A DNA stretch of 33,938 nucleotides from Candidatus Izemoplasmatales bacterium (GTDB lineage: Bacteria > Bacillota_I > Bacilli_A > Izemoplasmatales > Hujiaoplasmataceae): NCBI GenBank assembly GCA_028691315.1, contig JAQUZN010000013.1:1-33938 (forward strand), in the 5' to 3' direction. A program made the position numbers and the translations under genes. The notes below the pieces were generated by a model, which worked only from the letters and a program-made list of their open reading frames with translations, did not search any database and was not told the origin of the DNA. Below, in pieces: positions 610 through 19,312 of the stretch. The first letter of the stretch is position 1. Each line of letters starts with the position of its first letter.

Positions 610-619
610 GAGGAAAAAT

Positions 620-1921: not shown

Positions 1922-1928
1922 TGATATC

Positions 1929-2846: not shown

Positions 2847-2877
2847 AATAAGATATAATAAAAAGGAGAGAAATAAA

Positions 2878-3705: not shown

Positions 3706-3739
3706 TTTAATTCGTTTTACCCTGTAATAGGAGGGCAAT

Positions 3740-4351
3740 ATGCAATCAAAAACTATAAAAGACATATTTAAACTTTTTATCGATATTTTCTATGTCAATT
3801 TATTGTTTTGGTGTACTTTAATCGTAGGATTGGGATTGACAACGGTTGCTTCATTTAAAGCAATGTTTCATGTGCTATTCCATCTTCATGATCCAAAGCA
3901 CCAAACATATGTAGCAAGAGAATACTTTGAAAGTTTCAAAGAGAATTTTTTGACTTCACTTTGGATGTCAGTAGTATTGATCGGCGTAGCCCTCCTTTAC
4001 TATGTTTTATTTAGATATGCGTTTACAAATGTTATCACAGTTTTAATGGCATTTTCAATTGTATCAGCTTTTTTGTTCGTTTCGTATTTGTTATATCTAT
4101 TGCCAATTTACGCTATTTTTCAAACCGAATCGAACAAGAAATTATTTCAAAACAGCTTTTTCTTATTTGCAGGACACCCATGGGTCACTTTTAAGTTAAT
4201 TGGATCTTTGGCTTTTGTTGTTTTGCTCTTTGAATTATTTTCTGGTACAATTTTATTTTCAGTTGCACTTGTTTGTTATATCAATACAATCCATCTTGAT
4301 CCTATTTTTAAACCTTATTACCCAGTACTTGTAGAGGAGGAAAGCATATGA
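3740..4351 (+). CDS. DUF624 / YesL-like membrane protein
   Basis: This 203-residue protein is very hydrophobic, with four to five predicted membrane segments. The N-terminal pattern (short amphipathic start, then LLFWCTLIVGLGLTTVASFKAM) and the F-x-x-F-K-x-N-F block around residues 70-80 resemble the DUF624 family, whose B. subtilis member YesL lies in a sugar ABC transporter locus. The function of the family is not established. It has a strong SD (taggaggg, 3728-3735). Its TGA stop at 4349-4351 overlaps the ATG of the next gene, so translation is coupled. Confidence 0.8.
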   Translation: MQSKTIKDIFKLFIDIFYVNLLFWCTLIVGLGLTTVASFKAMFHVLFHLHDPKHQTYVAREYFESFKENFLTSLWMSVVLIGVALLYYVLFRYAFTNVITVLMAFSIVSAFLFVSYLLYLLPIYAIFQTESNKKLFQNSFFLFAGHPWVTFKLIGSLAFVVLLFELFSGTILFSVALVCYINTIHLDPIFKPYYPVLVEEESI

Positions 4352-5067
4352 GTCATTGGTATATTTATGTCATTATTTTACTTGTAATTTTCGCTGCTTA
4401 TGGCATCTTTTTTGCCTTTAAAAAAGGGAAAAAGAAGGGGGCAGATGATTTGTTAAAACTTTTTCTTGTGAATGGGTATGATTTAAAAGTCGCTGGATTT
4501 AAAGAACAAAACAAATCCATTTTGAAAAATGGGATTGTTTTTGTGGGCGATTCGATAACGCAAGATTATCCCTTACAAGACTTTTATCCTGGAAGTGTTG
4601 TTTATAACCGTGGAATTGGTGGAGATACATCGGTCGGTCTTTTAAAGAGATTAAATGAAAGTGTATTTGATCTAGAGCCAAGTAAAGTTGTACTTCTAAT
4701 TGGAACCAATGATTTTGGTGTGCTAAATGCAAAAGTTAGTGAAGTCGCTAAACGGATAAATCAAATTGTTGAAACAATCCATTTGCATCTTCCTAATACA
4801 AAAATCATCTTAGAGTCTGTTTATCCAGTAAATATTTCCTTAAGTGATAGTATTAGGTATCGAAGTAATGAAGATATTATCGAGTTGAATAAACTCTTAG
4901 CATTCACTAAAAATGTGACATTTGTCGATATTGCATCCCTTTTAATGGATGAAGATGGCAACCTGAACCCTCAATATACGGTTGAGGGATTGCATATCAA
5001 TGCTCAGGGATACAGAGTTATATCTAGTGCTCTTGCGCCTTATATTGTAAAAAATGAAAGGATGTAA
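4348..5067 (+). CDS. Membrane-anchored SGNH/GDSL-family hydrolase
   Basis: This 239-residue protein has one N-terminal membrane helix (about residues 5-24) followed by a lysine-rich stretch and then an SGNH hydrolase domain. The blocks are clear: VGDSI with nucleophile Ser69 (block I), a Gly in RGIGGD (block II), IGTND (block III) and EGLHIN near the C-terminus with the catalytic His (block V). The family removes acyl groups from lipids, glycans and cell-wall sugars. The lysines directly after the helix suggest, by the positive-inside rule, that the catalytic domain faces the cytoplasm; this is inferred. Its position between the sugar importer and a hexosamine-kinase-like gene fits deacylation of an imported saccharide. 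The start codon overlaps the previous stop (ATGA). Confidence 0.88.
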   Translation: MSHWYIYVIILLVIFAAYGIFFAFKKGKKKGADDLLKLFLVNGYDLKVAGFKEQNKSILKNGIVFVGDSITQDYPLQDFYPGSVVYNRGIGGDTSVGLLKRLNESVFDLEPSKVVLLIGTNDFGVLNAKVSEVAKRINQIVETIHLHLPNTKIILESVYPVNISLSDSIRYRSNEDIIELNKLLAFTKNVTFVDIASLLMDEDGNLNPQYTVEGLHINAQGYRVISSALAPYIVKNERM

Positions 5068-5072
5068 AGCCA

Positions 5073-5972
5073 ATGACTAATTATTATCTTGGAATTGATG
5101 GTGGGGGTAGCAAGACGCACTTTGTCGTAATTGATAACAACTCTAAAGTCGTATTTGAAAAAACAGAGGGACCTTCCGCTATTGATACTGTTGGAATTGA
5201 AGGGTGTTTAAGTACCATTTCGGGTCTTCTAAAAGCGATGCCTAATGGTATTCAAATTAGTTCAGTATTCGCGGGAATTGGTGGTGTTTCAGGTGTTGTT
5301 CATGAAGAAGAACTTCAGACTAGAATAAAGATGCTTGATAGAATTAACAAAGACGCTTTTGTTAAAGTTAAAAATGATGTTTCTGTCGCACTTCTTTCAA
5401 AAGACGGAACTTTTGAGGGTATGACATTGATTTTAGGGACAGGTTCTGTATGTTATGGTGTACATCATGGGAAAGAGTACCGCGTTGGTGGATATCATTT
5501 TCAAGAGGGTGACCTTGGTAGCGCTTATGATCTAGGGACGCAGGCAATGCGCCATTTAGCCAAAGTATTAGATAAAAGAAATAAATCAAGTGACTTTGCA
5601 AATCAATTGATGAAGGAAACAAATGTTTATGATTTTGTTTCAATGGCCGCTTATTTTGATACTTGGAATCGTTCTGAAGTAGCGAAACTTGCGAAAATCG
5701 TTACTAAATTTGCATCTGTAGATGAAGATGCAATGGCTATTTTAGAAAATGCATCTAATGAAGTATTTCACTTAGTTAGAACGCTTTACCATGAACTTGC
5801 ATTTGATGAGACCAAGCTTGTACTGGTTGGGGGACTTGCAAATGCAGATACTTTGTATAAAACAATGTTCTTAAATAAAATTCATTCAATTTCAAAAAAA
5901 ATCGAGATTATTTCACCAAAGTATACACCTGCAGAAGCTGCAGCTGTTTATGCGAAGAATGTTGCAAATTAA
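5073..5972 (+). CDS. BadF/BadG-type ATPase, N-acetylglucosamine-kinase-like
   Basis: This 299-residue ASKHA-fold kinase carries the phosphate-1 loop near its start (GIDGGGSKTH), the phosphate-2 region (LGTGSV, about residue 125) followed by GGYHFQEGDLGSAYDLG, and a C-terminal adenosine-type motif (VGGLANA). This arrangement is that of the BadF/BadG/BcrA family members annotated as N-acetylglucosamine or glucosamine kinases. It probably phosphorylates the sugar imported by the upstream ABC transporter, in the cytoplasm. It is the last gene of the operon and begins 5 bases behind the SGNH hydrolase gene. A different hexosamine or a non-sugar substrate is possible. A terminator lies about 160 bases downstream. 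Confidence 0.87.
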   Translation: MTNYYLGIDGGGSKTHFVVIDNNSKVVFEKTEGPSAIDTVGIEGCLSTISGLLKAMPNGIQISSVFAGIGGVSGVVHEEELQTRIKMLDRINKDAFVKVKNDVSVALLSKDGTFEGMTLILGTGSVCYGVHHGKEYRVGGYHFQEGDLGSAYDLGTQAMRHLAKVLDKRNKSSDFANQLMKETNVYDFVSMAAYFDTWNRSEVAKLAKIVTKFASVDEDAMAILENASNEVFHLVRTLYHELAFDETKLVLVGGLANADTLYKTMFLNKIHSISKKIEIISPKYTPAEAAAVYAKNVAN

Positions 5973-6300: not shown

Positions 6301-6849
6301 ATGGAAGATGAAATTACTCAATTTCTTGAACAAAAACAAATTACATACTCAATAATCAATCCTAAAGATATTATTTTTCGTGATGAATTTACCGACAGAT
6401 GCAAGATGAATTATTGTGGAAGATACAACACATCATGGACTTGCCCTCCGGCAATTGGTGATATTTCAGAATTAAGAAAACGTGTAATATCTTATCCTAA
6501 AGCCATCCTTTATCAGATGATCTTTCCTTTAGAAGACAATTATGATGTTGAAGGAATGGATGAAGGAAGACATTGCATTATGAAAGTAACACTAGAGCTA
6601 CATCAATTGCTTCAACATCAAAATTCTCCTTTTTTAGTTTTGGCTGCTGGAAGTTGTTCTATATGTCCTATATGCACTTATCCTGATAAAGAATGTCGGC
6701 ATCCTGAACTAAAACTATATTCAATGGAATCACTAGGAATCGATGTTGCAGTACTGTCTAAAATGTATCAATTAAAATATTATAATGGACCCTGTACGGT
6801 AACATATTATTCTGTGGTCTTCTTTTCGGAGGAAAAATGCCAACTGTAA
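6301..6849 (+). CDS. DUF2284 predicted metal-binding protein
   Basis: This 182-residue cytoplasmic protein matches the DUF2284 pattern. It has an N-terminal C-x4-C-G-R-Y-x-x-x-W-x-C-P-P block (Cys34, Cys39, Cys48), a central variable part, then a ferredoxin-like C-x2-C-x2-C-x6-C cluster (Cys119, 122, 125, 132) followed by RHPE and the S-M-E-S-L-G-I-D-V stretch. An Fe-S cluster is likely. Family function is not established. It overlaps the start of the corrinoid-activator gene by 13 bases, so it probably acts with it, for example in electron delivery to that protein's 2Fe-2S centre; this is inference. The ATG is well placed behind GAGGAG. Confidence 0.85.
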   Translation: MEDEITQFLEQKQITYSIINPKDIIFRDEFTDRCKMNYCGRYNTSWTCPPAIGDISELRKRVISYPKAILYQMIFPLEDNYDVEGMDEGRHCIMKVTLELHQLLQHQNSPFLVLAAGSCSICPICTYPDKECRHPELKLYSMESLGIDVAVLSKMYQLKYYNGPCTVTYYSVVFFSEEKCQL

Positions 6850-8309
6850 CGATTCGAAATTTAAATAATTACACGATAAATTCAACGAAAGTAAATCAAG
6901 ATCTCCTTTCACTTCTGAGGGAAAATCATTTATATATTAATAGTCCATGCGGTGGAACTGGTACATGTGGAAAATGTTTAGTCTATTTAGTAGAAAAAGA
7001 AACGATGGTTCAAGCATGCCAAAAAAAAGTTACATCTGACATGACTATTGAGATTACTTTACTAAATTCAAAAGCGAACATTAATACTACTAAACAAACT
7101 TCTTTTAAGCCAAGTGAAAACAAAGTAGGGCTTGCTATTGATCTTGGAACTACCACACTTGCATTTTATTTTATGGATCTTGTCACAAAAGATATTATTT
7201 ATTCAACCTCTGCAATCAATAATCAAATTGCATATGGTGCAGATGTAATTTCTAGAATCAATCAATCAATCCAAGGAAATTTTGAAGCGATATTTCATAC
7301 GATTATTTCACAAATCAATCAAGAAATCGATTTGTTTTTGAAAAAGTATAGATATACTTATATTAGTCAAATGGTAGTATCAGGCAATCCAACGATGATT
7401 CATATCCTCAACCACACGAACCCTCACACCATTGGCTTTGCACCTTATAACTGTGTATTTACAAACGCCATTTTCAAAAAAGGAAGTTCAATGCTACTTC
7501 AAACAGATGAAGTATCCTTACTTCCACTTGTTAGTGCCTTTATTGGCTCTGATTTAGTCGCAGGCATCATTTCTTCAAAAATGATGGCAATGCCCAATAG
7601 CCTGTTAATTGATCTAGGCACCAACGGTGAAATGATTCTTCATACACAAGATGAATTATTTGGAATATCCACAGCGACAGGGCCTGCATTTGAAGGGGCA
7701 TCCATTGAAATGGGCTTAGGTGGCGTGGATGGTGCAATTAATCATGTTGAGTATAAAGACAATTTTTTTACATACTCAACGGTTTCTGGTCAAGCAAGAG
7801 GTATCACAGGATCAGGACTTATCGACGCTGTTGCTATCTGCATCAAAGAAGGGTTTATAGATGAGACCGGTGCTCTCTCATATCCACTTTTAGAACAAAT
7901 TCCCAATATCTATCATGATAACCGGATCTATATTAACAAAGATGTTTATATCTCGCAAAAAGACATCAGAGAATTTCAACTTGCTAAAAGCGCAATTAGA
8001 GCTGGAATCGAGTCATTACTCAGCGTGACAAAAGTAAGTATTAAAGCGCTGAACCAGGTATATATTGCTGGTGGGTTTGGCTTTTATCTAAACATTAAAA
8101 ATGCGATAACTTGCGGGATGTTTCCCAAAGAATTTGAAGCGATTATTGTTTCAATTGGCAATGCATCTGGATTTGGAAGTCAAATTATCTTGACTAGACC
8201 AGATGAAATGAATAATGCGATTAAAATTGCTAAGGAAGTAAAAACCATTGAATTAACAAAACTGGCAATGTTCTCAAACTTGTTTATCGAACATATGCTT
8301 TTTGAATAA
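6837..8309 (+). CDS. RACE-type reductive activator of corrinoid proteins (2Fe-2S + ASKHA/DUF4445)
   Basis: The 490-residue product begins with a plant-type 2Fe-2S domain: Cys38, 44, 47 and 61 in a C-x5-C-x2-C-x13-C pattern. From about residue 98 follows an ASKHA ATPase domain of the DUF4445/RamA-RACo type, with a GLAIDLGTTTLA phosphate loop, a NGEM-containing segment (LIDLGTNGEM), GPAFEGA and GITGSGLIDA. Such proteins use ATP to reduce the inactive Co(II) state of corrinoid methyltransferase proteins to Co(I). The likely client is the corrinoid protein at 9776-10417. At 490 residues it is shorter than the roughly 600-residue forms, so the linker region between the domains is reduced. It overlaps the DUF2284 gene and is followed by the PocR/AraC regulator. 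Confidence 0.92.
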   Translation: MPTVTIRNLNNYTINSTKVNQDLLSLLRENHLYINSPCGGTGTCGKCLVYLVEKETMVQACQKKVTSDMTIEITLLNSKANINTTKQTSFKPSENKVGLAIDLGTTTLAFYFMDLVTKDIIYSTSAINNQIAYGADVISRINQSIQGNFEAIFHTIISQINQEIDLFLKKYRYTYISQMVVSGNPTMIHILNHTNPHTIGFAPYNCVFTNAIFKKGSSMLLQTDEVSLLPLVSAFIGSDLVAGIISSKMMAMPNSLLIDLGTNGEMILHTQDELFGISTATGPAFEGASIEMGLGGVDGAINHVEYKDNFFTYSTVSGQARGITGSGLIDAVAICIKEGFIDETGALSYPLLEQIPNIYHDNRIYINKDVYISQKDIREFQLAKSAIRAGIESLLSVTKVSIKALNQVYIAGGFGFYLNIKNAITCGMFPKEFEAIIVSIGNASGFGSQIILTRPDEMNNAIKIAKEVKTIELTKLAMFSNLFIEHMLFE

Positions 8310-8332
8310 CGTACTAAAGGGGTGTGATGAAT

Positions 8333-9631
8333 ATGAAGGTTGCGATTAGTGATTTTACTCTTGAACAAGTACTTAATCTAAAAGATCTAGAACAATTGTT
8401 CAGTCATTTTGCTAAACTAACTGGGATTGATGTATCGTTACACGACCCAGAAGGTCGTGAAATACTAGCGTACCGTCTAAACCCAGAAAAAAACATCTGT
8501 GAACTTGTAAAATCAAGACAATCAAACTGCGATTTTCAAATGAAGTATGCAGGACTTAAGTCAGCGGACCTGGGACAACCTTATATCTTTCAATGTGGAA
8601 CGATGGTCAAGTGTAGTGTTCCAATTTTGTTTGAGGAGAAATATATTGGGTCTTTAGCCTGTGGACCAGTTTTACTGTGGGATGCTGATGAAATTGCTAG
8701 AGGCGATTTGATTAATTTCGCAAAGACCTATCATATTCCCCAAGAAGATGCGGATTCCATTATGGATTGTGTGAAACAATTATCTCCAGAAAATATGCGC
8801 AGTGCAGCTGAAATGCTTAATTTAATGGTTTCATTTATGTGTAAAGAAGAATCTATCTTCCTCCAACAAAGAACGAAGATTACAAAACAACAAAATCAAA
8901 TCGCCGATTTGATTATCGAGAAAAGAATCAATGCCCTGAGTATGGAGACAATGGAAAAGAGAAATAAATTCCGTAAATATCCCTATGAACTGGAAAAAGA
9001 ATTAATTGCTTTTCTTCAAACTGGTGATAACAAGAATGCCATGCAAATTTTAAATTCAATACTAGGTGAAATTTTTTCATTATCCTCAGGTAATCTAGAT
9101 ATTATCAAAGCCAATGTCTATGAACTAACTGCTGTATTAATGAGAGCAGGAGTAGACGCAGGCGTAAGTTTATCTGACATGAGTCAAATATTAAGAAAAG
9201 TAACCGTCATTTTATCAGATGATACTTTATATGATGAAGTATGCCTTCTAACAACAGAAGTAATGGAAGAGATTAATAAAGTAATTTCCGCTAATAAATT
9301 TAAAAAACAAAGCAACGAAAATTTAATTAATGCGATTAGTTATATCAAGAAAAACTATCGTTTTGATTTAAGCCTTGATAATGTCGCAAATAGTGTATTT
9401 GTAAGTTCTTACTACCTTAGTCATCTATTTAGAGACGAAATTAATATGACTTTTAGCGATTATGTGAACAAAGTACGGATGGATGAGGCAATAAAACTGA
9501 TGAAAGAAACCCATATGGCAATTCAAGATATTGCAATAAAATGTGGATTCTCTGATGCTAGTTATTTTACAAGGACATTTAAGAAATATCATGGAATTAC
9601 TCCAAAAAAATACATGAGTCTTTATTTTTAA
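8333..9631 (+). CDS. PocR-sensor / AraC-family transcriptional regulator
   Basis: This is a two-part cytoplasmic regulator of about 432 residues. The N-terminal 170 residues have the PocR ligand-sensor pattern (DLEQLFSHFAKLTGIDVSLHD, several spaced cysteines, then CSVPILFEEKYIGSLACGPV). A helical linker follows, and the last 100 residues are a double helix-turn-helix AraC domain (YLSHLFRDEIN and CGFSDASYFTRTFKKYHGITPKKY). PocR domains bind small organic ligands; in Salmonella PocR responds to 1,2-propanediol. Placement directly before the corrinoid operon suggests that it activates that operon when the methylated substrate is present. Starts at 8324 (GTG), 8327 and 8333 (ATG) are possible. 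I prefer 8333 because the SD AAAGGGG (8316-8322) is then 10 bases away. Confidence 0.9.
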   Translation: MKVAISDFTLEQVLNLKDLEQLFSHFAKLTGIDVSLHDPEGREILAYRLNPEKNICELVKSRQSNCDFQMKYAGLKSADLGQPYIFQCGTMVKCSVPILFEEKYIGSLACGPVLLWDADEIARGDLINFAKTYHIPQEDADSIMDCVKQLSPENMRSAAEMLNLMVSFMCKEESIFLQQRTKITKQQNQIADLIIEKRINALSMETMEKRNKFRKYPYELEKELIAFLQTGDNKNAMQILNSILGEIFSLSSGNLDIIKANVYELTAVLMRAGVDAGVSLSDMSQILRKVTVILSDDTLYDEVCLLTTEVMEEINKVISANKFKKQSNENLINAISYIKKNYRFDLSLDNVANSVFVSSYYLSHLFRDEINMTFSDYVNKVRMDEAIKLMKETHMAIQDIAIKCGFSDASYFTRTFKKYHGITPKKYMSLYF

Positions 9632-9775: not shown

Positions 9776-10417
9776 ATGATTTTAGACGAAATAAGCACCT
9801 TACTTCAAAAAGGAAAGGCAAAAGAAGTCAAACTGTTAGTTCAAAACGCACTAGATGAAGGGATAGCTCCTGTAGAAATCCTAAATCAGGGATTAATTAA
9901 AGGAATGTCCATCATTGGTGGAAAATTCAAAAACAATGAAGTCTTTGTGCCTGAAGTACTTGTTGCGGCACGTGCTATGAACTCTGGACTTGAAATCTTG
10001 CGTCCAGCTTTAGTCCTTGCGGGAAACAAGTCAGTAGGTAAAGCACTAATATGTACTGTTTCTGGAGACTTACATGATATTGGCAAAAACCTTGTCAAAA
10101 TGATGATGGAAGGCCAAGGAATTGAAGTCATCGACTTGGGTGTAGATGTTAGCCCAGAAACAATTATTGAAGCAATCAAAGAGCATCATCCACAGATTAT
10201 TTGCCTTAGTGCATTACTGACAACGACAATGATGAACCAAAAGGTAATCATTGATTCGATAAATGATTCAGGTCTACGCAGAAAAATCAAAATCATGATT
10301 GGTGGCGCACCAGTAACTGAACAATACGCTAAAGAAATTGGAGCTGATGGATATTCGCCTGATGCCGCAAGTGCATCAGAAATGGCATTATCATTTTTAT
10401 GTAAAGGAGATTGCTAA
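9776..10417 (+). CDS. Corrinoid (B12-binding) methyltransferase protein, MtaC/MtvC type
   Basis: The 213-residue product has the two-part structure of corrinoid proteins in three-component methyltransferase systems. A helical cap (about residues 1-85, with GLIKGMSIIGGKFKNNEVFVPEVL-type residues around 40-62) is followed by a Rossmann B12-binding domain. The signature GDLHDIGKN is present, with His100 as the expected lower cobalt ligand. Downstream, SALLTTTM and IGGAPV complete the B12 fold. It would carry the methyl group from a methylated donor to an acceptor between the partner methyltransferases. It is the first gene of an operon running to 19312, and the next gene starts 1 base after its stop. 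Co(II) repair would come from the activator at 6837-8309. Confidence 0.94.
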   Translation: MILDEISTLLQKGKAKEVKLLVQNALDEGIAPVEILNQGLIKGMSIIGGKFKNNEVFVPEVLVAARAMNSGLEILRPALVLAGNKSVGKALICTVSGDLHDIGKNLVKMMMEGQGIEVIDLGVDVSPETIIEAIKEHHPQIICLSALLTTTMMNQKVIIDSINDSGLRRKIKIMIGGAPVTEQYAKEIGADGYSPDAASASEMALSFLCKGDC

Positions 10418-10418
10418 G

Positions 10419-11504
10419 ATGTTCAAAACAATTGATTCTTATAAAATTGATATTGATAAGACATTTAGTGAATCAAAGAAATTATACGATGATGCCTTGC
10501 ACAAAATTCCAGGGAATATCAGCTTCCGCACACTACCACCAAGTGATGTTGAAATCTATACTCGACTTGATCTAACAAAATACAATTACATAACTGATGT
10601 TGATAAGTACGCAGAGGATCTTATTTCACTCTTAGATGAATCCTATACGAAGCGTGCCTTAATTGATGACAATATGATTCCAACTATTTTTCCTATATTG
10701 GGAATTGGTGATTACAGCGCGTTTGTTGCCGGAGATATTATTTTTAAAAAAGATACTTCATGGGGACAGCATATTCTAAACGAAATTGATGATTATAAAA
10801 AATTACCACCCATCGGAACGGCAATTTGGTATAAAAGATTTTTAGAAATTTCTGAAGCATTAATTAAAAAAAGTGCTTCAAAGGAAATTCCATATATGCG
10901 AGGCTTTTTTTCGCCACTAGATCTTGCACATGCACTTCGGGGAGAAGATATCTATTATGATTTCTATGATGAACCCGAAAAAGTTCATGAACTTCTAAAT
11001 TACTGTGCTGATGCAATTATTCATTTCGCTGAAGACATCTACAACCTTGTTGAACAATACTATCGAAACACAAAATATGGCACATGGTACACCAAAAACT
11101 GTATTAACATGTCTGAAGATATCGCATGTATGATCAGCGGTGAGACCTATAGAGAATTCTGCATGCCACATACACAAAAAGTAATCGATTATTTTGGCAT
11201 TGGCTATATGCATTGCCATTCACGGGCTATGTACTTAGTAAAAGAAATTTGCTCTATGAGAAACGTAGTCCACTTGTGGTTAGCTACGGATCCTAATCAG
11301 CCAAGACCGATGGAACATCTAGAATCACTAATCAAAGATGCAAATGGAGCAGTTTTAGCAATTGATTGTGACAATTTTGAAGAAATAGAAAATAATTTTG
11401 AATTAATGAAAAAAGGGAATTTCTCAATTTGCTTACCGGTTTCTTCAATTGATGAAGGAATTGAATTAACAAACCGGTTTAGAAAGTGTAACAAGGAGGA
11501 ATAA
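10419..11504 (+). CDS. URO-D-fold protein, putative corrinoid-dependent methyltransferase (paralogue 1)
   Basis: This product of about 361 residues shows the C-terminal half of the uroporphyrinogen-decarboxylase/MtaA-like TIM barrel, including the motif following YFGIGYMH. At the usual H-x-C zinc site it reads His265-Cys266-His267, and Cys338 lies near the position of the third ligand, so metal binding may be altered. It is unlikely to be the heme enzyme HemE: it directly follows the corrinoid protein and no heme gene is near. I infer a role as the methyl-donor-specific methyltransferase, or a regulatory or structural relative. A longer frame opens upstream at 10338, but the ATG at 10419 has SD AAAGGAGA (10403-10410) and avoids overlapping the corrinoid protein gene. 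Confidence 0.8.
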   Translation: MFKTIDSYKIDIDKTFSESKKLYDDALHKIPGNISFRTLPPSDVEIYTRLDLTKYNYITDVDKYAEDLISLLDESYTKRALIDDNMIPTIFPILGIGDYSAFVAGDIIFKKDTSWGQHILNEIDDYKKLPPIGTAIWYKRFLEISEALIKKSASKEIPYMRGFFSPLDLAHALRGEDIYYDFYDEPEKVHELLNYCADAIIHFAEDIYNLVEQYYRNTKYGTWYTKNCINMSEDIACMISGETYREFCMPHTQKVIDYFGIGYMHCHSRAMYLVKEICSMRNVVHLWLATDPNQPRPMEHLESLIKDANGAVLAIDCDNFEEIENNFELMKKGNFSICLPVSSIDEGIELTNRFRKCNKEE

Positions 11505-11506
11505 TC

Positions 11507-13831
11507 ATGAAAAAATTTAGCGTAATATTATTAACTATTGTTTTTCTTGCTTTTTCATGGGTTTTTTCTACGCCTGTTTTCGCAGACGGTGCAACTTCTT
11601 TAAGAATTTGGTTTTCTCAATATGATGAAGAAAATTTGGCAATGGAAGCCATTGCTAAGAGATATGAAGAAGAAACTGGCGTTCATGTAGAAGTTATCTC
11701 AAGAATTAATCTTTTTAATGCTGTTAAAGACTTAGTGAATAATGCTACGCTTGATGATAGACCTGATATTGTCTACTTGCAGGCACCAGATATTGGTCTT
11801 CTAGTAAAAAGTGGATATCTTCGTGATATCAGTGATGCAATTGATGAAGAAATGACTACTAGATTTGTTGACGTTGCTTTTTCTGCATTTTCATACAACG
11901 GATCTAATTATGGAGTCGGATATTCTGTTGACTCTTATGGACTAATCTACAACAAGGCATATATATCAGAAGAAGAACTACCAAAAACCTGGGATGAGTT
12001 TTATGCAACTGCAAAAGCACTAACTCAAGTTGATGAGGATGGAAATGTACTAGTTCATGGTGCGTTACTTAATTCTAGAGACATGTGGTTTAATTATTCT
12101 CTGATAAAATCTTTTGGTGGATATTACTATGGTACTTTCCCAAATGGGGATTATAATCCATATGATATTGGATTAGATAATCCTGGCATGCTTGATTATA
12201 TCGCGTTAATGAAAGAGATGAAATCTAATAACCTTGTTTTGACAAACAAGATTCATGGCGAAAGTGAAATTGTATCTCGATTTGCAAATGGAAAAGTAGC
12301 AATGATTATTTACGGATTATGGTATGCTTCTTCATTTCAACAACAAGGAATTGATTATGGCATTGCTTCATTACCAGATTCATCTGATGGAACTATTTCC
12401 AAAGCGTTAGCTACAGTCACAGGGTTTGCCGTCAACAATTACACGCTTCATCCAGATGAATCAGTTTCGTTCTTGAAATATATTCTTGAAGATGATAATC
12501 AACAACTATTGATTGAAGCCGGAAATGGATACTCCCAATTGCTAGGCACAAGAAATCCAGCGAACAAAAGTGTGATTGCTTCAGCTTATATTCAAAGTTC
12601 GGATATTCTATCCTCTTTATCTTCTTTAAATGATGAATGTGAACCTTTCCCAAATATTGCTGAAGGGCAGATTTGGTACAATTATACAAGCACTGTATTT
12701 CAAAGTATCTTTTTTGGCGATGCAAATGGCGATGAAGTAGATCCACAGGCAAAGTTATCTGAACTAACAGAAAAAATTCGTGAAGATGTTCAGCTAATGA
12801 ACTATCAAGCCGAAAGAATAGAAGTTCCACCTGTATTTTATCTAGTGTTGATTTTACTTGCCATAGGATTTATCGTATTTAAAATTGTTCGCTTTAAAAT
12901 TGAACAAAAAAAGCAATTATATCACTCCAGACTATCTTGGAAAGAAACATTTCTTGCATGGGGATTGATGACACCTTTACTGATATTACTGCTAGTCTTT
13001 TATGTATATCCAATATGTCATAATTTCTATCTATCACTAACAGATTATAGTGGCGTGAACCTTAGAGATTATGGGCTAATAGGATTTGCAAACTACAAAA
13101 ATATTTTTGTAGCAGGACTAGATGGTTTGATTAAAATGAGTTGTTGGACAATAATCTTCGCAACACTCGTGGTTGTAATTGCATTTATCTTAGGAACTTT
13201 TTTAGCTACTTTATTATGTGAAATTAACTTCAAGGTTGCTAAAATCTATCGTATCGTATTTATCTTACCATGGGTGATTCCAACCGTCATTACACTATTA
13301 ATGTGGCAAGGACTTTTAGATACCGATGGTGGACTAATTAATCAGTTACTGGGTTTGATTGGAATCCCAAATATACCATGGCTATCAGATGCGTTTATGG
13401 CTAAAGTATCAACCGTTCTTGTGATGACCTGGTTCTCATTTCCATACTTCATGGTCGTTGCTTCAGGACTGCTTAAATCGATTCCAAAGGATTATTATGA
13501 TGCGGCAAAAATGGATGGAGCCAATGGCTATTACACATTCAAGTTCATTACTCTTCCACTAGTTTTTAAAGCACTAATTCCAACACTAATTATGTCATTT
13601 ATTATGCAGTTCAATCAATTTGGTGTTTATATCTTGACTGCTGGTGGACCAGCATCAGACAAAATTGGCGCACCAGGCGCAACGGATCTTTTAATTACGT
13701 ATGTATTTAATACAGCATTTAATACGAGTCGTTATGCGGTTGCGGCGAGTTATTCAGTAATTATCTTTGTATTTGTCGCAATTTTTGCAATTATCTCGAT
13801 GAGAGTCGGAAGAAAGGTGGCGAATACTTAA
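11507..13831 (+). CDS. ABC transporter binding protein-permease fusion (MalE-MalF type)
   Basis: This is a 774-residue fusion. It has a signal peptide ending about STPVFA (residue 26) without a lipobox Cys, then a complete extracellular sugar-binding domain (about residues 27-435, with RIWFSQYDEENLAM at its start and GLIYNKAYISEEELPKTWDEF in the middle). A single membrane helix (about 442-461) brings the chain to the cytoplasm. A MalF-type permease follows from about residue 485, with an EAA loop (DAAKMDGAN from residue 665, then ITLPLVF). The receptor is thus tethered to its own channel. The MalG-type partner starts 1 base after the stop. Receptor fusions are known in glycine-betaine and glutamine importers; in the CUT1 sugar family I regard the fusion as unusual. 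No ATPase gene is present, so a shared ATPase is inferred. Confidence 0.93.
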   Translation: MKKFSVILLTIVFLAFSWVFSTPVFADGATSLRIWFSQYDEENLAMEAIAKRYEEETGVHVEVISRINLFNAVKDLVNNATLDDRPDIVYLQAPDIGLLVKSGYLRDISDAIDEEMTTRFVDVAFSAFSYNGSNYGVGYSVDSYGLIYNKAYISEEELPKTWDEFYATAKALTQVDEDGNVLVHGALLNSRDMWFNYSLIKSFGGYYYGTFPNGDYNPYDIGLDNPGMLDYIALMKEMKSNNLVLTNKIHGESEIVSRFANGKVAMIIYGLWYASSFQQQGIDYGIASLPDSSDGTISKALATVTGFAVNNYTLHPDESVSFLKYILEDDNQQLLIEAGNGYSQLLGTRNPANKSVIASAYIQSSDILSSLSSLNDECEPFPNIAEGQIWYNYTSTVFQSIFFGDANGDEVDPQAKLSELTEKIREDVQLMNYQAERIEVPPVFYLVLILLAIGFIVFKIVRFKIEQKKQLYHSRLSWKETFLAWGLMTPLLILLLVFYVYPICHNFYLSLTDYSGVNLRDYGLIGFANYKNIFVAGLDGLIKMSCWTIIFATLVVVIAFILGTFLATLLCEINFKVAKIYRIVFILPWVIPTVITLLMWQGLLDTDGGLINQLLGLIGIPNIPWLSDAFMAKVSTVLVMTWFSFPYFMVVASGLLKSIPKDYYDAAKMDGANGYYTFKFITLPLVFKALIPTLIMSFIMQFNQFGVYILTAGGPASDKIGAPGATDLLITYVFNTAFNTSRYAVAASYSVIIFVFVAIFAIISMRVGRKVANT

Positions 13832-13832
13832 T

Positions 13833-14666
13833 ATGAAAAAATCTAGAATTCATCTTAAAAAACTGATTGCTCATTTCTTTTTACTTGGGTTAACAATTAT
13901 CACATTAATTCCATTTTTGTATATCATACTAATTGCTTTTGGGAAAAATGTCGTTGGTACGAGTGCCACAATTCCTAAGGAATATACCTTAAACAACTTT
14001 TCACGGCTCTTTGTTGAAACAAAGTTTTTATCTTGGATCCAAAATTCACTCGTAATTGCTTTTTCAACGATGGTTATTTCAGTCATTTTTGTTAGTATTA
14101 CCGTTTATGTGTTTTCAAGAATGAAGTTTCACGGTAGAGAAAAGTTATTTCAATTCATTCTTTTAATTCAGATCTTTCCACTGACACTCTCAATGGTTTC
14201 CATCTTTAGTATCTTTGTCAATTTAGGAATTATCAATGACTTGAAAGGCTTGGTTTTATTAAATTCGACGATATCCTCTGCGGGTTTAGTACTACTTGCA
14301 AAAGGTTATTTTGATACGATTCCATATGAAATTGATGAAGCTGCGATGATGGATGGAGCTAGTCGACTTCAAACATGTTTTAGAGTGATTTTACCTCTTG
14401 CCAAACCAATGATGGCAGTCGTTGCGATTCAAAGCTTTGTCATCGCATACAACGAATACGCGATTGCTTCAACGGTAATGACCGAGGGACTAACATCCAT
14501 GCCACTGGCTGTAGGATTACAATCCATGATAACCGGACAGTTCGGTACAAACTGGAGTATGTATTGTGCTGCAGCAATCTTGGGTTCAATTCCAATGATT
14601 ATTTTATTTTATTCGCTCCAAAAATATTTTATTGGCGGACTGACTGAAGGCTCGATAAAAATGTAA
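13833..14666 (+). CDS. Carbohydrate ABC transporter permease, MalG type
   Basis: This 277-residue protein has six predicted membrane helices, an N-terminal Arg/Lys-rich start (MKKSRIHLKK) and the permease EAA loop (DEAAMMDGAS, then VILPLAKP). The C-terminal LQKYFIGGLTEGSIKM matches MalG-type subunits. It begins 1 base after the stop of the binding protein-permease fusion and must be its heterodimer partner. The resemblance to MalG, together with the following neopullulanase-like gene, points to an alpha-glucan or maltodextrin-like oligosaccharide, possibly modified. Confidence 0.93.
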   Translation: MKKSRIHLKKLIAHFFLLGLTIITLIPFLYIILIAFGKNVVGTSATIPKEYTLNNFSRLFVETKFLSWIQNSLVIAFSTMVISVIFVSITVYVFSRMKFHGREKLFQFILLIQIFPLTLSMVSIFSIFVNLGIINDLKGLVLLNSTISSAGLVLLAKGYFDTIPYEIDEAAMMDGASRLQTCFRVILPLAKPMMAVVAIQSFVIAYNEYAIASTVMTEGLTSMPLAVGLQSMITGQFGTNWSMYCAAAILGSIPMIILFYSLQKYFIGGLTEGSIKM

Positions 14667-14678
14667 AGGAAGATATGA

Positions 14679-16367
14679 ATGGTTAAAACTAGTGTACAAC
14701 ATTCCAGCAACCCACCTTACTGTTATCCTATAGCGATTGATACACTTTGTGTCCGTTTGAAAATTAAGAGAAATACTTGCACACTGGTTTTAGTTCATTA
14801 TCAAAATCTGTATGATCATACAAGTTATTTAAAAACATCTGAGATGAAACTAATATTAAGTGATGACTTGTTTGATTTATATGAAACAACCATTACGATG
14901 AAAAGCCGTCATTTCAAGTATTACTTTGATATTACTTGTAAAAATATCATCTATCACTATACATCAGATGGCTTTATTACCGAGCCTGAGCCGTCTAATT
15001 ATTTTTATTATTCATCAATTAATAAAGATGAAATTAAAACACTTCCCAAAAATTGTGAAGGGGAGATCATTTATCAAATTTTAGTCGATCGCTTTTTTGA
15101 TGGAAATCCATTGAATAATCCAAAGAACACGAAAAACAAGAGTGAATTACCAGATCGTAACACCTATTATGGTGGCGATTTTGAAGGAATTGTTCAAAAG
15201 CTCGATTATCTTGATGCTTATGGCGTAAAGATTATTTATTTAAGTCCCGTCTTTGATTCGCCTACTTACCATAAATATGACATTAATGACTATTATCATA
15301 TTGAGGATATATATGGAGGAAAAGAGGGATTAACGACCCTTGTAAAAAAAGCCCATGAAAAAAATATGTTGATAGTTTTGGATACAGTATTTAATCATGC
15401 ATCCTCAAATCATCCATTTTTTCAAGACATTCTTTTAAACCAGGAGAAGTCAAAGTATCTTGATTATTTTGAAATTGAATCTTTTCCTGTTTCTGTAGAA
15501 AAAGGAAATTATAACAATTTTGCTAATTTAGTTCCTTCAATGCCTAAATGGAACACTGTGAATCCTAAAGTTCAAAACTACTTGATTGACTCAAGTATCT
15601 ATTGGATGAAAAAATGTCATATTGATGGATTTAGACTAGACGTTGCAGACGAAGTGTCACACGCTTTTTGGAAAAACTTTTATTTAAGAATTAAACAACA
15701 AAATAAAGACGCAATTATTATCGGCGAAATTTGGAATCAAGCCCAAAACTGGGTCAATACGAATGAAATTGATACTGTTACAGATTACAAATTTCGACAA
15801 TTTCTTCTCGATTTTTCGGGCTTCAAAAAATCATCAACTCACTTTTTTCAAAAACTGAATCATCATAAAATGTTGTATCTTACACCTACATTTAACTATC
15901 TTGTGCATTTGGTAGGAAGTCACGATACGATTCGATTAATAAACTATCTTCAAAAGCCCAAATTTCATTTCTTGACGCTTTCAACAATGCTTTTGTTTGA
16001 TGGGATTCCATTAATTTATTATGGAGATGAAATTGCTTTACCAGGAGAGGTTGATCCTGATAATCGCCGTGCTATGATATGGGATCGACCAATTACAAGC
16101 GAAGAGGAAGCTTTTAAAAAGTTATGCAAGTTTCGTAGCCAGTCTGAAGTTTTAAAAAAGGGAACACTTGAGACGATTTCTTCCACTTCGAGAGTACTTA
16201 AATTTATACGTTCTTATCAAAATCACAAAATTCTTGTTGTCATTAATTTTTCAGGCAGGCCTACTTTGGTGGTCAGTCATGACTACATTCATTTACTTGG
16301 AGAAGTTCTTCAAAAAAATGGCGGATTTATTGTGTATCCGTATTCATATGCATTATTTAGGATTTAA
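14679..16367 (+). CDS. GH13 alpha-glucanase, neopullulanase/cyclomaltodextrinase-like
   Basis: The 562-residue protein lacks a signal peptide, so it acts in the cytoplasm on imported oligosaccharides. An N-terminal beta-rich domain of about 125 residues (CBM34-like position) precedes a GH13 barrel. All conserved regions are present: DTVFNH (from residue 235), GFRLDVADEV with nucleophile Asp321, GEIW with acid Glu350, and GSHDT with Asp416. The MPKWN segment (residue 288) resembles the MPKLN marker of the GH13_20 neopullulanase group. It would hydrolyse alpha-1,4/1,6 links of maltodextrins, cyclodextrins or pullulan fragments. The SD AAAGGAAG lies 6 bases ahead of the ATG. Membership in a corrinoid methyltransferase operon is unusual and suggests that the glucan is methylated or carries a methyl aglycone. 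Confidence 0.93.
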   Translation: MVKTSVQHSSNPPYCYPIAIDTLCVRLKIKRNTCTLVLVHYQNLYDHTSYLKTSEMKLILSDDLFDLYETTITMKSRHFKYYFDITCKNIIYHYTSDGFITEPEPSNYFYYSSINKDEIKTLPKNCEGEIIYQILVDRFFDGNPLNNPKNTKNKSELPDRNTYYGGDFEGIVQKLDYLDAYGVKIIYLSPVFDSPTYHKYDINDYYHIEDIYGGKEGLTTLVKKAHEKNMLIVLDTVFNHASSNHPFFQDILLNQEKSKYLDYFEIESFPVSVEKGNYNNFANLVPSMPKWNTVNPKVQNYLIDSSIYWMKKCHIDGFRLDVADEVSHAFWKNFYLRIKQQNKDAIIIGEIWNQAQNWVNTNEIDTVTDYKFRQFLLDFSGFKKSSTHFFQKLNHHKMLYLTPTFNYLVHLVGSHDTIRLINYLQKPKFHFLTLSTMLLFDGIPLIYYGDEIALPGEVDPDNRRAMIWDRPITSEEEAFKKLCKFRSQSEVLKKGTLETISSTSRVLKFIRSYQNHKILVVINFSGRPTLVVSHDYIHLLGEVLQKNGGFIVYPYSYALFRI

Positions 16368-16382
16368 TGCCATATAGGCATT
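16366..16382 (+). repeat. Intercistronic hairpin between the GH13 and lipoprotein genes
   Basis: AATGCC (16366-16371) and GGCATT (16377-16382) form a 6-base stem with a 5-base loop, overlapping the GH13 stop codon. There is no T tail, so it is not a simple terminator. It could protect or process the mRNA so that the downstream lipoprotein is made in larger amounts. Confidence 0.45.
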
Positions 16383-16407
16383 CATATAAAGAAAAGGAGA
16401 ATTACAA

Positions 16408-17250
16408 ATGAAAAATTTAAAATTATTCGTATCACTTTTTATGCTTTTTGGATTTGCTTTTTTGTTAGTCGGATGCGGTGATAACTCAACAACAACGACA
16501 ACCACAAATGGTGGTAATGATTCTACAACAACTACCACAGAAGCAACACTATCACCTTATTTTGTTGCTGGTAGTTTCAATGGATACATTGCCGATGATG
16601 AAGGCTCTCGTATGCAAGCTCTAGCTGAAGAAGAAGGATGGTATACATTTACTGTTGAACTTAATGCTGACAACCGTGATAATGCGTATGATGGACATTA
16701 TTACACGATTACCGATGGTACATGGACAACAACTTTTGGTACTACTAGCTATGCATTACAGCCTGCTCCTACTTCACCTACAGGTGGAGGAATGGGAAGC
16801 ATTTATGTTTATGAAAATCAAACATTGACTATTTTGTTCGATTCTAACACTAATACTGTTTATGATAGTTCAATGGTTAAAGTACTTGATAACCCAATTA
16901 TTTATGGCGATTTTAATACCGCTATGGATCACGGTGCAGATTGGTCAATTGCTTTAACAGACGCGCTTGTTTTAGAAGACACAGATAGCAATGGTATCTA
17001 TGAGGGCGAATGGACATTCCCAGCATACACTGGTTCAAGTGAATCAGGATATACGTTATTAGTCGCAACTGCAACTGCTTATTATATCGGTGCATGGGGA
17101 CACAGTTGGGGTGTATTAACTCAATATTTGTTTGATGGAAACCTCGCTTCTATGGGAGCTGTTAATAATTTAAAGCCAACAGTTGACACGACATATCATT
17201 TTGCATACGATAGTGCAACTCATATTACTACTTGTACAGTTGTTGAATAA
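16408..17250 (+). CDS. Surface lipoprotein with carbohydrate-binding-like domains
   Basis: The 280-residue product has a lipoprotein signal (lipobox LVGC, Cys23) and then a low-complexity Thr/Asn/Ser linker (about residues 27-48) typical of a flexible stalk. The first domain (about residues 50-150) begins FVAGSFNGY, like the start of starch-binding or SusE/SusF-type beta-sandwich modules. It is rich in Trp, Tyr and Gly. The second part (about 160-280) starts again with IYGDFNTA and may be a second such module. A surface role in holding glucan near the importer is plausible given the GH13 and MalEFG-like neighbours. Catalytic residues were not seen. The SD AAAGGAG is good. Confidence 0.8.
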   Translation: MKNLKLFVSLFMLFGFAFLLVGCGDNSTTTTTTNGGNDSTTTTTEATLSPYFVAGSFNGYIADDEGSRMQALAEEEGWYTFTVELNADNRDNAYDGHYYTITDGTWTTTFGTTSYALQPAPTSPTGGGMGSIYVYENQTLTILFDSNTNTVYDSSMVKVLDNPIIYGDFNTAMDHGADWSIALTDALVLEDTDSNGIYEGEWTFPAYTGSSESGYTLLVATATAYYIGAWGHSWGVLTQYLFDGNLASMGAVNNLKPTVDTTYHFAYDSATHITTCTVVE

Positions 17251-17271
17251 ACAATATAGAATTGAGATGAA

Positions 17272-18324
17272 ATGATGCTTAGACCAAAAAATTGGATTCC
17301 TAATTTTCATAATATGGAATTAATACTGCAAAAAAAAGCAGCTCCAAGACCAGTATTTTTTGATTTCATCATAGGAGATGAAAAAGAAAAGATGTTGGTA
17401 GGAGAATTATATCGTCATGATACAGAATTGGAAAGAGTTGTTACAACAATTCGTGCTTTTGACAGTGCAGGGTTTGATCATGCACCAATCATTGTTAGGG
17501 GATTATCATTTGAACGAAATGGTGAAGTTCATGAAGGTGTATCGACAAAATCTTTGAATAGTGGATCGGTTATTTCTGACTGGGATTCGTATCATCAATA
17601 TAAATGGCCAGAAATAACCGATTGCGATTTTTCGATTATTGATCACGCGAGTGAGTACTTACCTAAAAATGTAAAGTTTATCCCTTTTAGTTTAGATGGA
17701 ATCTTAGAAAATACAATAGGAATTGTCGGTTTTGAAAACTTATGCTATATGGTTTATGATGACTCTGACTTAGCGGAGGCAATCTTTCAAAAAGTGGGAG
17801 AAAGAATCGAAGCATATTTTACCGAGTGCCTCAAAAAACCATCTGTTGGGGCAATCTTATGCAATGATGACTGGGGATTTAACACCCAAACCATGTTGCC
17901 ACCAGATATGCTCAGAAAATATGTGTTTCCTTGGTATAAAAAAATTGTTAAAAAGGCACATGAGTGTGGAAAATATGCAATCCTTCATTCCTGTGGCTAT
18001 TTTGGAGATATCATCGAAGACATTATTGAAGACATGAAATTTGACGGCAGACACTCTTATGAAGACAACATTGTTCCAGTAGAGAAAGCATATCAATCTT
18101 TAAACCCTAGAATTGCAATTCTAGGAGGCATTGATGTTGATTTTTTAGCTAGAGCAACAATTCCAAAAATTATTGAACGGACAAAAAATGTTTTAACTAT
18201 GACAAAAAAATCAGGTGGGTATGCTCTTGGAAGCGGAAATTCGATTCCAGATTATATTCCTAATGACCATTACAAAGCATTTCTCACAGCCGCTCTAGAA
18301 ATGGGTGATTTTACATATGAATAA
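17272..18324 (+). CDS. URO-D-fold methyltransferase, corrinoid system (paralogue 2)
   Basis: This 350-residue protein is clearly of the uroporphyrinogen-decarboxylase superfamily. Its LHSCGYFGDII motif gives His239 and Cys241, the H-x-C pair used for zinc in MtaA/MtbA-type methyltransferases. At the place of the third ligand the sequence reads GSGN (Asn323) rather than GC, so the canonical thiol-activating site is incomplete. In three-component systems URO-D-fold proteins can serve as the donor-side or acceptor-side methyltransferase; this one is a reasonable candidate for the donor side (demethylase). Two ATGs (17272, 17275) are possible with a weak GAGATGA SD. Its 3' end overlaps the next gene. 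Confidence 0.87.
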   Translation: MMLRPKNWIPNFHNMELILQKKAAPRPVFFDFIIGDEKEKMLVGELYRHDTELERVVTTIRAFDSAGFDHAPIIVRGLSFERNGEVHEGVSTKSLNSGSVISDWDSYHQYKWPEITDCDFSIIDHASEYLPKNVKFIPFSLDGILENTIGIVGFENLCYMVYDDSDLAEAIFQKVGERIEAYFTECLKKPSVGAILCNDDWGFNTQTMLPPDMLRKYVFPWYKKIVKKAHECGKYAILHSCGYFGDIIEDIIEDMKFDGRHSYEDNIVPVEKAYQSLNPRIAILGGIDVDFLARATIPKIIERTKNVLTMTKKSGGYALGSGNSIPDYIPNDHYKAFLTAALEMGDFTYE

Positions 18325-19312
18325 AAAAGAATGGATTAATCATATCAAAAATAATAGACAGTTGTCATTGCCGGTATTATCTTTTCCGGCAGTGCAACTG
18401 TTAAATATTACAGTTAAAGATTTAGTAAGTGACAGTACTTTACAAGCTAAAGCAATGGATGCAATTGCACACAGGTATTCAATGAGTGCTTCGTTATCAA
18501 TGATGGATCTAAGCGTTGAAGCAGAAGCTTTTGGCGCAGAAGTACGATATTTTGATATGGATGTTCCAACTGTCATTAAAACGAAAATTGAAACAATGGA
18601 AGATGTTGATAACTTATTAGTTCCTGAAATCGGAACAGGTAGGACTAAAACATATATTGAAGGTATTCGTCAGGCGAAATCTTTGATTACTGACATTCCT
18701 GTTTTTGCGGGAGTGATTGGACCATTCTCTTTGTCTGGAAGACTAATGGATATGACTGAAATTATGGTCAACTGCTATATAAATCCAGAAATGGTACATG
18801 AAACACTAACAAAAGCATCGTTATTTATTAAAAATTATATTTTGAAGTTAAAAGCAGCCGGCGCTGATGGAGTCATAATGGCAGAACCTGCTGCAGGGCT
18901 TCTATCACCTGAAATATGTCAGGAGTTTTCATCAAGGTACATTGCTGACATTGTAAAAGATGTAAATAGTGATGATTTTGTATTTATCTATCACAATTGT
19001 GGAAATGTGATTCCTTTGGTTGATACGATGTTAAGCATAAAAGCAGATATCTATCATTTTGGCGATGCAATAAATATGGAAAACATATTGCGCTTAATGC
19101 CTGCCGATACTGTTGTAATGGGCAACTTAAGTCCTTCTAGTGTATTTCAAAAAGGAACTGTGCAAAGTGTAAAAGACGAAACAAATCATCTGCTTGAAAA
19201 ATGTTCGATTTATGAGAACTTTATTATTAGTTCGGGGTGCGATATTCCTCCACTTACTCCAATTGAAAATATTGATGCATATTTTGAAACAGTATCAAGT
19301 TTTTATAAATAA
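18317..19312 (+). CDS. URO-D-fold methyltransferase, MtaA/MtbA-like (paralogue 3)
   Basis: About 331 residues. This paralogue keeps the full zinc-site pattern of MtaA/MtbA-type methylcobamide methyltransferases: HNCG with His226 and Cys228, and SSGCDIPPLTP with Cys308. It is therefore the best candidate for moving the methyl group from the corrinoid protein to an acceptor. The acceptor (a thiol, or tetrahydrofolate as in acetogens) is not evident from the window. The ATG at 18317 overlaps the previous stop by 8 bases; a GTG at 18305 is an alternative with no better SD. It is the last gene of the operon, followed by a weak terminator. Confidence 0.88.
   Translation: MNKKEWINHIKNNRQLSLPVLSFPAVQLLNITVKDLVSDSTLQAKAMDAIAHRYSMSASLSMMDLSVEAEAFGAEVRYFDMDVPTVIKTKIETMEDVDNLLVPEIGTGRTKTYIEGIRQAKSLITDIPVFAGVIGPFSLSGRLMDMTEIMVNCYINPEMVHETLTKASLFIKNYILKLKAAGADGVIMAEPAAGLLSPEICQEFSSRYIADIVKDVNSDDFVFIYHNCGNVIPLVDTMLSIKADIYHFGDAINMENILRLMPADTVVMGNLSPSSVFQKGTVQSVKDETNHLLEKCSIYENFIISSGCDIPPLTPIENIDAYFETVSSFYK

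Follow-up and report, generated by a model that had tools for sequence, protein, structure and literature searches.

What do three proteins of the URO-D family do in one operon if they differ at the zinc site known from their relatives? This question is raised by positions 10419-19312 of the window, by which we mean the whole analysed stretch of 33,938 nt of contig JAQUZN010000013.1 (GCA_028691315.1) from Candidatus Izemoplasmatales bacterium. All three genes lie on the + strand and encode P1 (10419..11504; PF01208, 1.1e-7), the most divergent of the three, P2 (17272..18324; PF01208, 4.6e-19) and the MtaA/MtbA-like P3 (18317..19312; PF01208, 4.3e-52), which are the only PF01208 matches in the whole draft genome of the host (2.42 Mb, completeness 90%, contamination 7.9%). 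A first-pass annotation had taken the metal-site residues to indicate a split of roles, with P3 on the acceptor side and P1 and P2 acting on the donor or as regulators. It had missed four genes between P1 and P2, two for uptake, one for hydrolysis and one for a lipoprotein. We propose, with modest confidence, that the operon serves the anaerobic use of an O-methylated alpha-glucan, with P1 and P2 as donor-side O-demethylases 1 and 2 and P3 as a methyl-corrinoid:thiol methyltransferase that passes the methyl group to a thiol. The role split, which we regard as partly supported, now rests on better evidence than residues alone, and the sugar operon is the main result.

The four genes between P1 and P2 encode a MalE-MalF fusion (MalEF), in which a solute-binding protein is joined to a permease (11507..13831, +; PF13416, PF01547, PF00528), a MalG-type permease (13833..14666, +; best NCBIfam model MalG with 158.5 bits, below the cut-off of 261), a GH13 enzyme with an Alpha-amylase_N domain (14679..16367, +; PF00128 3.8e-59, PF02903) and a lipoprotein with a repeated unit that is a putative glycan binder (16408..17250, +; lipobox-like LVGC, sub-threshold SusF_SusE match with E 0.044). 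The GH13 enzyme resembles cyclomaltodextrinase and neopullulanase (best NCBIfam model cyclomaltodextrinase with 256 bits, below the cut-off of 540) and retains all three motifs GFRLDVA, GEIW and GSHDT; inspection by eye revealed no obvious signal peptide. The lipoprotein repeat gives two to four matches along its homologue in several loci. From P1 through P3 the gene gaps are 2, 1, 12, 40, 21 and -8 nt, the last being an overlap of P2 and P3 by 8 nt. Upstream of P1, the head of the operon comprises a DUF2284 predicted metal-binding protein (6301..6849, +; PF10050, E 2.2e-43), a RACE-type corrinoid reductive activase with 2Fe-2S and RACo domains (6837..8309, +; PF14574 6.9e-63, PF17651, PF00111), a PocR-AraC transcription regulator (8324..9631, +; PF10114 6e-26, PF12833) and a corrinoid protein (9776..10417, +; PF02607, PF02310), the sole PF02607 match in the genome. 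A PF00756 esterase that possibly deacylates a sugar follows P3 (19511..20281, +; 4.7e-25).

The association of the URO-D genes with the sugar genes is conserved. Among 90 genomes of the order, P1 occurs in 11 and P2 orthologues with more than 50% identity in 11, besides one 34% relative; ten of the latter 11 genomes also carry P1, and the singletons, G020 with P1 only and G028 with P2 only, are both on short contigs. MalEF, at a threshold of E 1e-60, was found in 12/90 genomes, which are exactly the union of P1 and P2 carriers. Hypergeometric values computed in the analysis take the genomes as independent and include no correction for phylogeny. In a wider sample of 392 genomes of the phylum, P1 was present in seven. 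Seven of ten relatives compared (family f1) share the order DUF2284-RACE-PocR-corrinoid-P1-MalEF-MalG-GH13-lipoprotein-P2-P3-esterase within the limits of their contigs and of the stretches examined, and the remaining three (family f2) differ at the operon head. A scan of the contigs of named genomes yielded 21 P1 loci, ten of them on the same contigs as these relatives. Their labels, given to metagenome-assembled genomes (MAGs), are Izemoplasmatales/Izimaplasma, Acholeplasmataceae or Acholeplasmatales, Haloplasmataceae/Haloplasma, Bacillales, Tenericutes or Mollicutes, Thermotogae/Thermotogaceae, Clostridia, and Bacillota or Firmicutes. MalEF, or its halves as separate genes, adjoins P1 in 21/21 loci, and each of the 14 loci whose examined stretch runs beyond the lipoprotein contains P2. 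Locus distances among P1, P2, MalEF, MalG and GH13 correlate well (r 0.62-0.90), whereas those of the same five proteins correlate less with the distances of RACE or the corrinoid protein (r 0.10-0.77). A chance insertion of the sugar genes is rejected by locus conservation, MalEF co-occurrence and these correlations. The divergent operon at locus L041 has P1 after MalG and, upstream, a P2 relative with 28% identity and the residues H-T-D; this version also encodes a large protein with a CBM48/AMPK1_CBM glycogen-binding domain (L041:709-3417).

The third URO-D protein is exchanged, whereas P1 and P2 remain linked to the sugar genes. P3 adjoins P2 in the window and in G002, G011, G013, G018, G019, G024, G091, G092, G093 and G096. 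In family f2, Haloplasma and Thermotogae its place is taken by P3', a protein of about 450 residues that combines a URO-D part carrying F-x-C...C with a C-terminal thioredoxin-like CAAC domain (L047:1267-2625, L046:3174-4538, L051:2232-3662, L054:4625-5986, L056:7789-9162). P3' adjoins P2 in G071, G074 and G076, is one gene away in G090, G095 and G097, and lies on a separate contig in G094 and G098; the G094 copy is accompanied by a PocR, a RACE and a corrinoid protein of its own. G099 has a 52% identical P3 elsewhere in the genome, G100 a more distant P3 together with P3' pieces; for G020 the analysis found P1 alone. This exchange is as expected if the acceptor side were modular, P1 and P2 being specific for the substrate and P3 or P3' general. 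Together with the joint divergence of P1, P2, MalEF, MalG and GH13, it supports the earlier assignment of P3 to the acceptor and of P1 and P2 to the donor side. The suggestion that P1 and P2 are regulatory did not hold up: it is unlikely because the lineages own a separate DNA-binding regulator, PocR-AraC here and TrmB in the f2 and Thermotogae loci.

What do the sites themselves tell? Direct reading of the codons confirmed the residues named before: H226 (18992-18994), C228 (18998-19000) and C308 (19238-19240) in P3 (start ATG 18317); H239 (17986-17988), C241 (17992-17994) and N323 (AAT, 18238-18240) in P2 (start ATG 17272); and H265 (CAT, 11211-11213), C266 (TGC, 11214-11216) and H267 (CAT, 11217-11219) in P1 (start ATG 10419). 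When P2 and P3 are aligned to the MtaA structure 4ay7, their H-x-C falls on the H-x-C of MtaA, and N323 and C308 fall on its third Cys. By these alignments, the positions in P2 and P3 can be equated firmly with those of the known zinc site; for the P1 positions this does not hold. Conservation was counted over orthologue rows from which identical copies had been removed beforehand (22 for P1, 24 for P2, 13 for P3); the P2 rows take in distant relatives and represent 22 distinct proteins, the rows from L046 and L051 being truncated copies of those from L040 and L038. H226 and C228 of P3 are conserved in 13/13 rows and C308 in 12/12. H239 of P2 is found in 24/24 rows, C241 in 23/24 (Asp in L041) and N323 in all 23 rows with a letter at this position.

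URO-D methyltransferases of the S type are stated to have His-Cys-Cys, while in those of the O type one Cys or both are replaced (PMC10418091). By this rule P3 would be the thiol enzyme and P1 and P2 would be of the O type. Since the H-C-C proteins of type 1 mlp clusters are proposed to demethylate methyl-selenides in the same paper, H-C-C would mark thiol or selenol chemistry and not its direction. The earlier argument that H-C-C alone places P3 on the acceptor side is therefore weak, all the more as P3' has no His. P3 shares 70/259 aligned residues (27%) with 4ay7 and scores below the curated MtaA/MtbA cut-offs (NF004889, 146 of 244 bits; TIGR01463, 126 of 235). The model of P2 (mean pLDDT, the predicted local distance difference test, 74.4) is less certain than that of P1 and matches 4ay7 with a Z-score of 25.8, a root-mean-square deviation (rmsd) of 3.6 and 16% identity over 303 aligned residues. 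A HemE role is unlikely because these three are the only URO-D proteins of the genome and their HemE scores are low: P2 and P3 lie far below the HemE cut-off, and HemE is not among the P1 matches listed.

P1 required a different reading. H265 and H267 are each invariant in 22/22 rows, whereas position 266 is C in 10, T in 7 and S in 5 rows, and position 338, a Cys in the window protein, is C in 13, T in 7 and A in 2. The first-pass annotation had named His-Cys-His at this place and would have been contradicted by a further Cys at the third place; in this one protein Cys338 might be such a residue, but because 266 and 338 vary among orthologues, zinc binding by Cys does not count among the conserved functions of P1, and the reading of His-Cys-His as a Cys-containing zinc site is rejected as a conserved feature. 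As judged from its orthologues, what is conserved in P1 is H-x-H and not a site built on Cys. N230, E233, D234, T290, D291, N293, D316 and N334 are likewise invariant in 22/22 rows, and the conserved E233, D234, D291, N293, D316 and N334 make a harder oxygen/nitrogen metal site plausible. Positions 266 (11214-11216) and 338 (11430-11432) covary, T going with T in 7/7 rows, which hints that the two residues touch near the active site.

P1 nevertheless has a predicted URO-D fold. Its Pfam match covers a short stretch only, and neither its sequence alone nor its alignment found a credible match among solved structures, but its AlphaFold2 model (mean pLDDT 89.5) has a URO-D fold across almost the full length. 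It matches human UROD with Z 20.1 and rmsd 3.7 over 303 aligned residues and 4ay7 with Z 19.3, rmsd 3.8 and 12% identity over 294. VIA-align placed UroD, MtaA and MetE structures in the top rows among the matches listed; below its first row, the Foldseek list by itself consisted mainly of unrelated barrels. The divergence of P1 and its variable positions 266 and 338 would also suit a set of three functionally equivalent paralogues, or a non-catalytic P1 subunit, with the metal-site differences as mere drift. We consider this highly improbable, as ten residues of P1 including H265/H267 are invariant in 22/22 rows and N323 of P2 in 23/23, the opposite of what drift would leave.

If P1 and P2 deliver methyl groups to the corrinoid protein, where do these go? 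A PF02607 corrinoid protein was found in 23/24 carrier genomes surveyed, the exception being G028, an 82% complete MAG. Among 22 carriers surveyed for folate enzymes, the pterin methyltransferase family PF00809 was not detected in 16, the host draft genome among them, and MtrH (PF02007) was not detected in any of the 22; MTHFR exceeded its cut-off in only four and was not detected in the host. Most carriers thus appear to be without the known methyl-folate acceptor enzymes, and the simplest reading is a thiol acceptor reached through P3, since no folate acceptor enzyme was detected in these cells. Thiols do serve as methyl traps in vitro with cobalamin-dependent corrinoid O-demethylases (PMC10946705). 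Alternatively, P3 or an enzyme that escaped detection could pass the methyl group to tetrahydrofolate for use as a carbon or energy source, as in acetogens; FTHFS is present in 22/22 carriers, and an Mlp acting as unrecognised tetrahydrofolate methylase has been raised as a possibility (PMC10418091). Given that PF00809 and MTHFR were seldom and MtrH never detected, and given the thiol-type H-C-C site of P3, we regard such a route as rather unlikely.

From the observed gene order and its conservation and co-occurrence, the predicted folds and the site residues, we infer the following course for thiol-directed demethylation. The lipoprotein and MalEF/MalG would bind and import an O-methylated alpha-glucan oligosaccharide, which the GH13 enzyme would cut in the cytoplasm while the esterase strips acyl groups. 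P1 and P2 would move sugar ether methyls, perhaps from two different positions, to the Co(I) corrinoid protein, whose reduced cobalt RACE would maintain with the DUF2284 protein. P3, with a putative zinc site of the thiol type (H-C-C), would then take over the methyl group that the corrinoid protein carries and pass it to a small thiol such as homocysteine or sulfide.

The genomic context says alpha-glucan: the importer is of the MalEFG type, the GH13 enzyme is cyclomaltodextrinase-like, TrmB sugar regulators occur in other loci and a CBM48 protein is predicted at L041. The PF00756 esterase adjoins P3 or P2 in several relatives, and family f2 has a SASA-type carbohydrate esterase between GH13 and the lipoprotein (L021:13567-14862, L040:14875-16167); these esterases suggest an acylated glycan. 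A known glycan with such properties is the mycobacterial 6-O-methylglucose lipopolysaccharide (MGLP), which consists of alpha-1,4-linked glucose and 6-O-methylglucose, ends in 3-O-methylglucose and bears short acyl esters (PMC4555173, PMC2674218). MGLP as the substrate is a hypothesis that would explain both the two demethylases and the esterase. The methyl donor might also be something other than a sugar ether, namely a methyl glycoside, methyl ester, methylthio-sugar or aromatic glycoside that is either attached to the glucan or set free from it. Classic URO-D O-demethylases cleave phenyl methyl ethers (PMC13222342, PMC10946705), and an esterase is present in many loci; the operon contains no aromatic degradation genes that we could see, and the kind of GH13 enzyme, TrmB and the CBM48 protein point to glucan, making such donors unlikely. 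More tentatively than the operon's general purpose, we suggest a new anaerobic pathway in which two URO-D demethylases (H-x-H and H-C-N) act behind a MalE-MalF importer, the methyl group is dumped on a thiol and MGLP is a candidate substrate.

Comparison with known systems delimits this proposal further. The locus resembles the type 1 mlp clusters of Kountz and Balskus (PMC10418091) in combining several URO-D proteins, one corrinoid protein and one RACE with no nearby folate methylase, and P3 resembles an Mlp with H-C-C. As in these clusters, the corrinoid protein (9776-10417) and RACE (6837-8309) run in the same direction (all +), and no tetrahydrofolate methylase lies within 20 kb; PF00809 and MtrH were undetected in the entire draft genome. 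Type 1 mlp clusters further contain two or more Mlps whose identity to a characterised SCMT exceeds 25%, whereas here, with one SCMT structure (4ay7) compared, P3 reaches 27%, P2 16% and P1 12%. They leave at most 2 kb between genes, but the sugar genes part P1 (end 11504) from P2 (start 17272) by about 5.8 kb. Apart from some Mlps1, their Mlps also have His-Cys-Cys, which holds for P3 but not for P2 (N323) or P1 (H-x-H). A methyl-sulfur or methyl-selenium salvage cluster of this kind might share the operon by chance with an ordinary maltodextrin pathway, as the H-C-C of P3 and the known H-C-C clusters without folate methylases, proposed for methyl-Se and methyl-S compounds (PMC10418091), would allow. 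This is quite unlikely in our view: the sugar genes accompany P1 and P2 in Izemoplasmatales, Haloplasma, Thermotogae and Clostridia MAGs alike, whereas P3 is replaced, P1 and P2 have no H-C-C, and this MalEF type is absent from the other 78 genomes of the order, so that it does not represent the usual maltose locus there.

With the O-demethylase systems of the URO-D type (OdmB, VdmB, MtvB and MtoB, and the haloalkane relative CdmB) the locus shares the URO-D fold, as modelled for P1 and P2, a corrinoid protein and an activating enzyme. Unlike the three-component Odm, Vdm, Mtv and Mto systems, its host has no detected pterin/MtrH methyltransferase II to pass the methyl group to folate (PF00809, PF02007), and it pairs two dissimilar URO-D donor proteins with a third in the context of a sugar transporter and GH13 rather than of aromatic compounds. 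P3 shares the full H-x-C...C site with the MtaA/MtbA methylcobamide:coenzyme M methyltransferases (4ay7), although it scores below their curated families. To our knowledge, coenzyme M is not expected in this organism. A P450 that demethylates 6-O-methyl-galactose from porphyran under aerobic conditions (PMC10033563) likewise removes the methyl group of a methoxy sugar, but by a monooxygenase reaction that releases formaldehyde, whereas the system described here would be anaerobic and corrinoid-based. Overall, the locus would work like a corrinoid O-demethylase, yet it lacks defining features of both type 1 mlp clusters and three-component O-demethylases.

Several observations weigh against demethylation of an imported sugar by this operon. 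A GH13 enzyme and transporter would look alike for plain maltodextrin, and sequence proves no methylation of the imported sugar. The zinc-free URO-D demethylase CdmB (PMC13222342) shows that zinc is not a requirement of the site, and P3' has F-x-C and hence no His in 8/8 rows that hold this stretch. Sequence-profile alignments put C266 of P1, not H267, on the zinc Cys (C228 of P3); with the covariation of 266 and 338, this makes any register of P1 relative to the H-x-C of MtaA tentative. The distances of P2 and RACE correlate with only r 0.10. The presence of FTHFS in every carrier surveyed shows that folate C1 metabolism exists, and the carrier genomes are mostly MAGs, which makes absences soft.

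Other features were noted around the operon. The DUF2284 protein regularly adjoins RACE at the operon head in f1-type loci that reach that far. Directly upstream, window positions 103-5972 hold a second sugar-type ABC transporter set, a GDSL lipase/acylhydrolase and a BadF-type kinase, whose genes have no match among those listed in the loci of relatives examined. No RNA elements or tRNAs were found within the window; a promoter scan of it gave 57 promoter-like sites compared with 72 in shuffles, and a terminator scan likewise did not discriminate. Another sugar operon (L075:3415-11595, genome G049), with genes for an FBP aldolase, two PfkB sugar kinases and a lyxose-isomerase-like protein, also encodes a corrinoid protein and three members of the URO-D family, of which one is P2-like with H-C-N (34% identity). 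Sugar-linked corrinoid systems may thus be more general.

Our literature search, judged by titles and the openings of abstracts, found no report of corrinoid-dependent sugar O-demethylation; the sole route for demethylation of a methylated sugar that it returned is the oxygen-using P450 for the porphyran sugar (PMC10033563). If our proposal is true, B12-type O-demethylation in fermenting anaerobes would take in carbohydrates in addition to aromatic ethers and small methyl compounds. It would likewise imply a methyl sink outside folate and a URO-D metal site that can be read as a guide to roles within one operon. The findings give candidate substrate classes for several uncultured lineages of Izemoplasmatales and Thermotogae.

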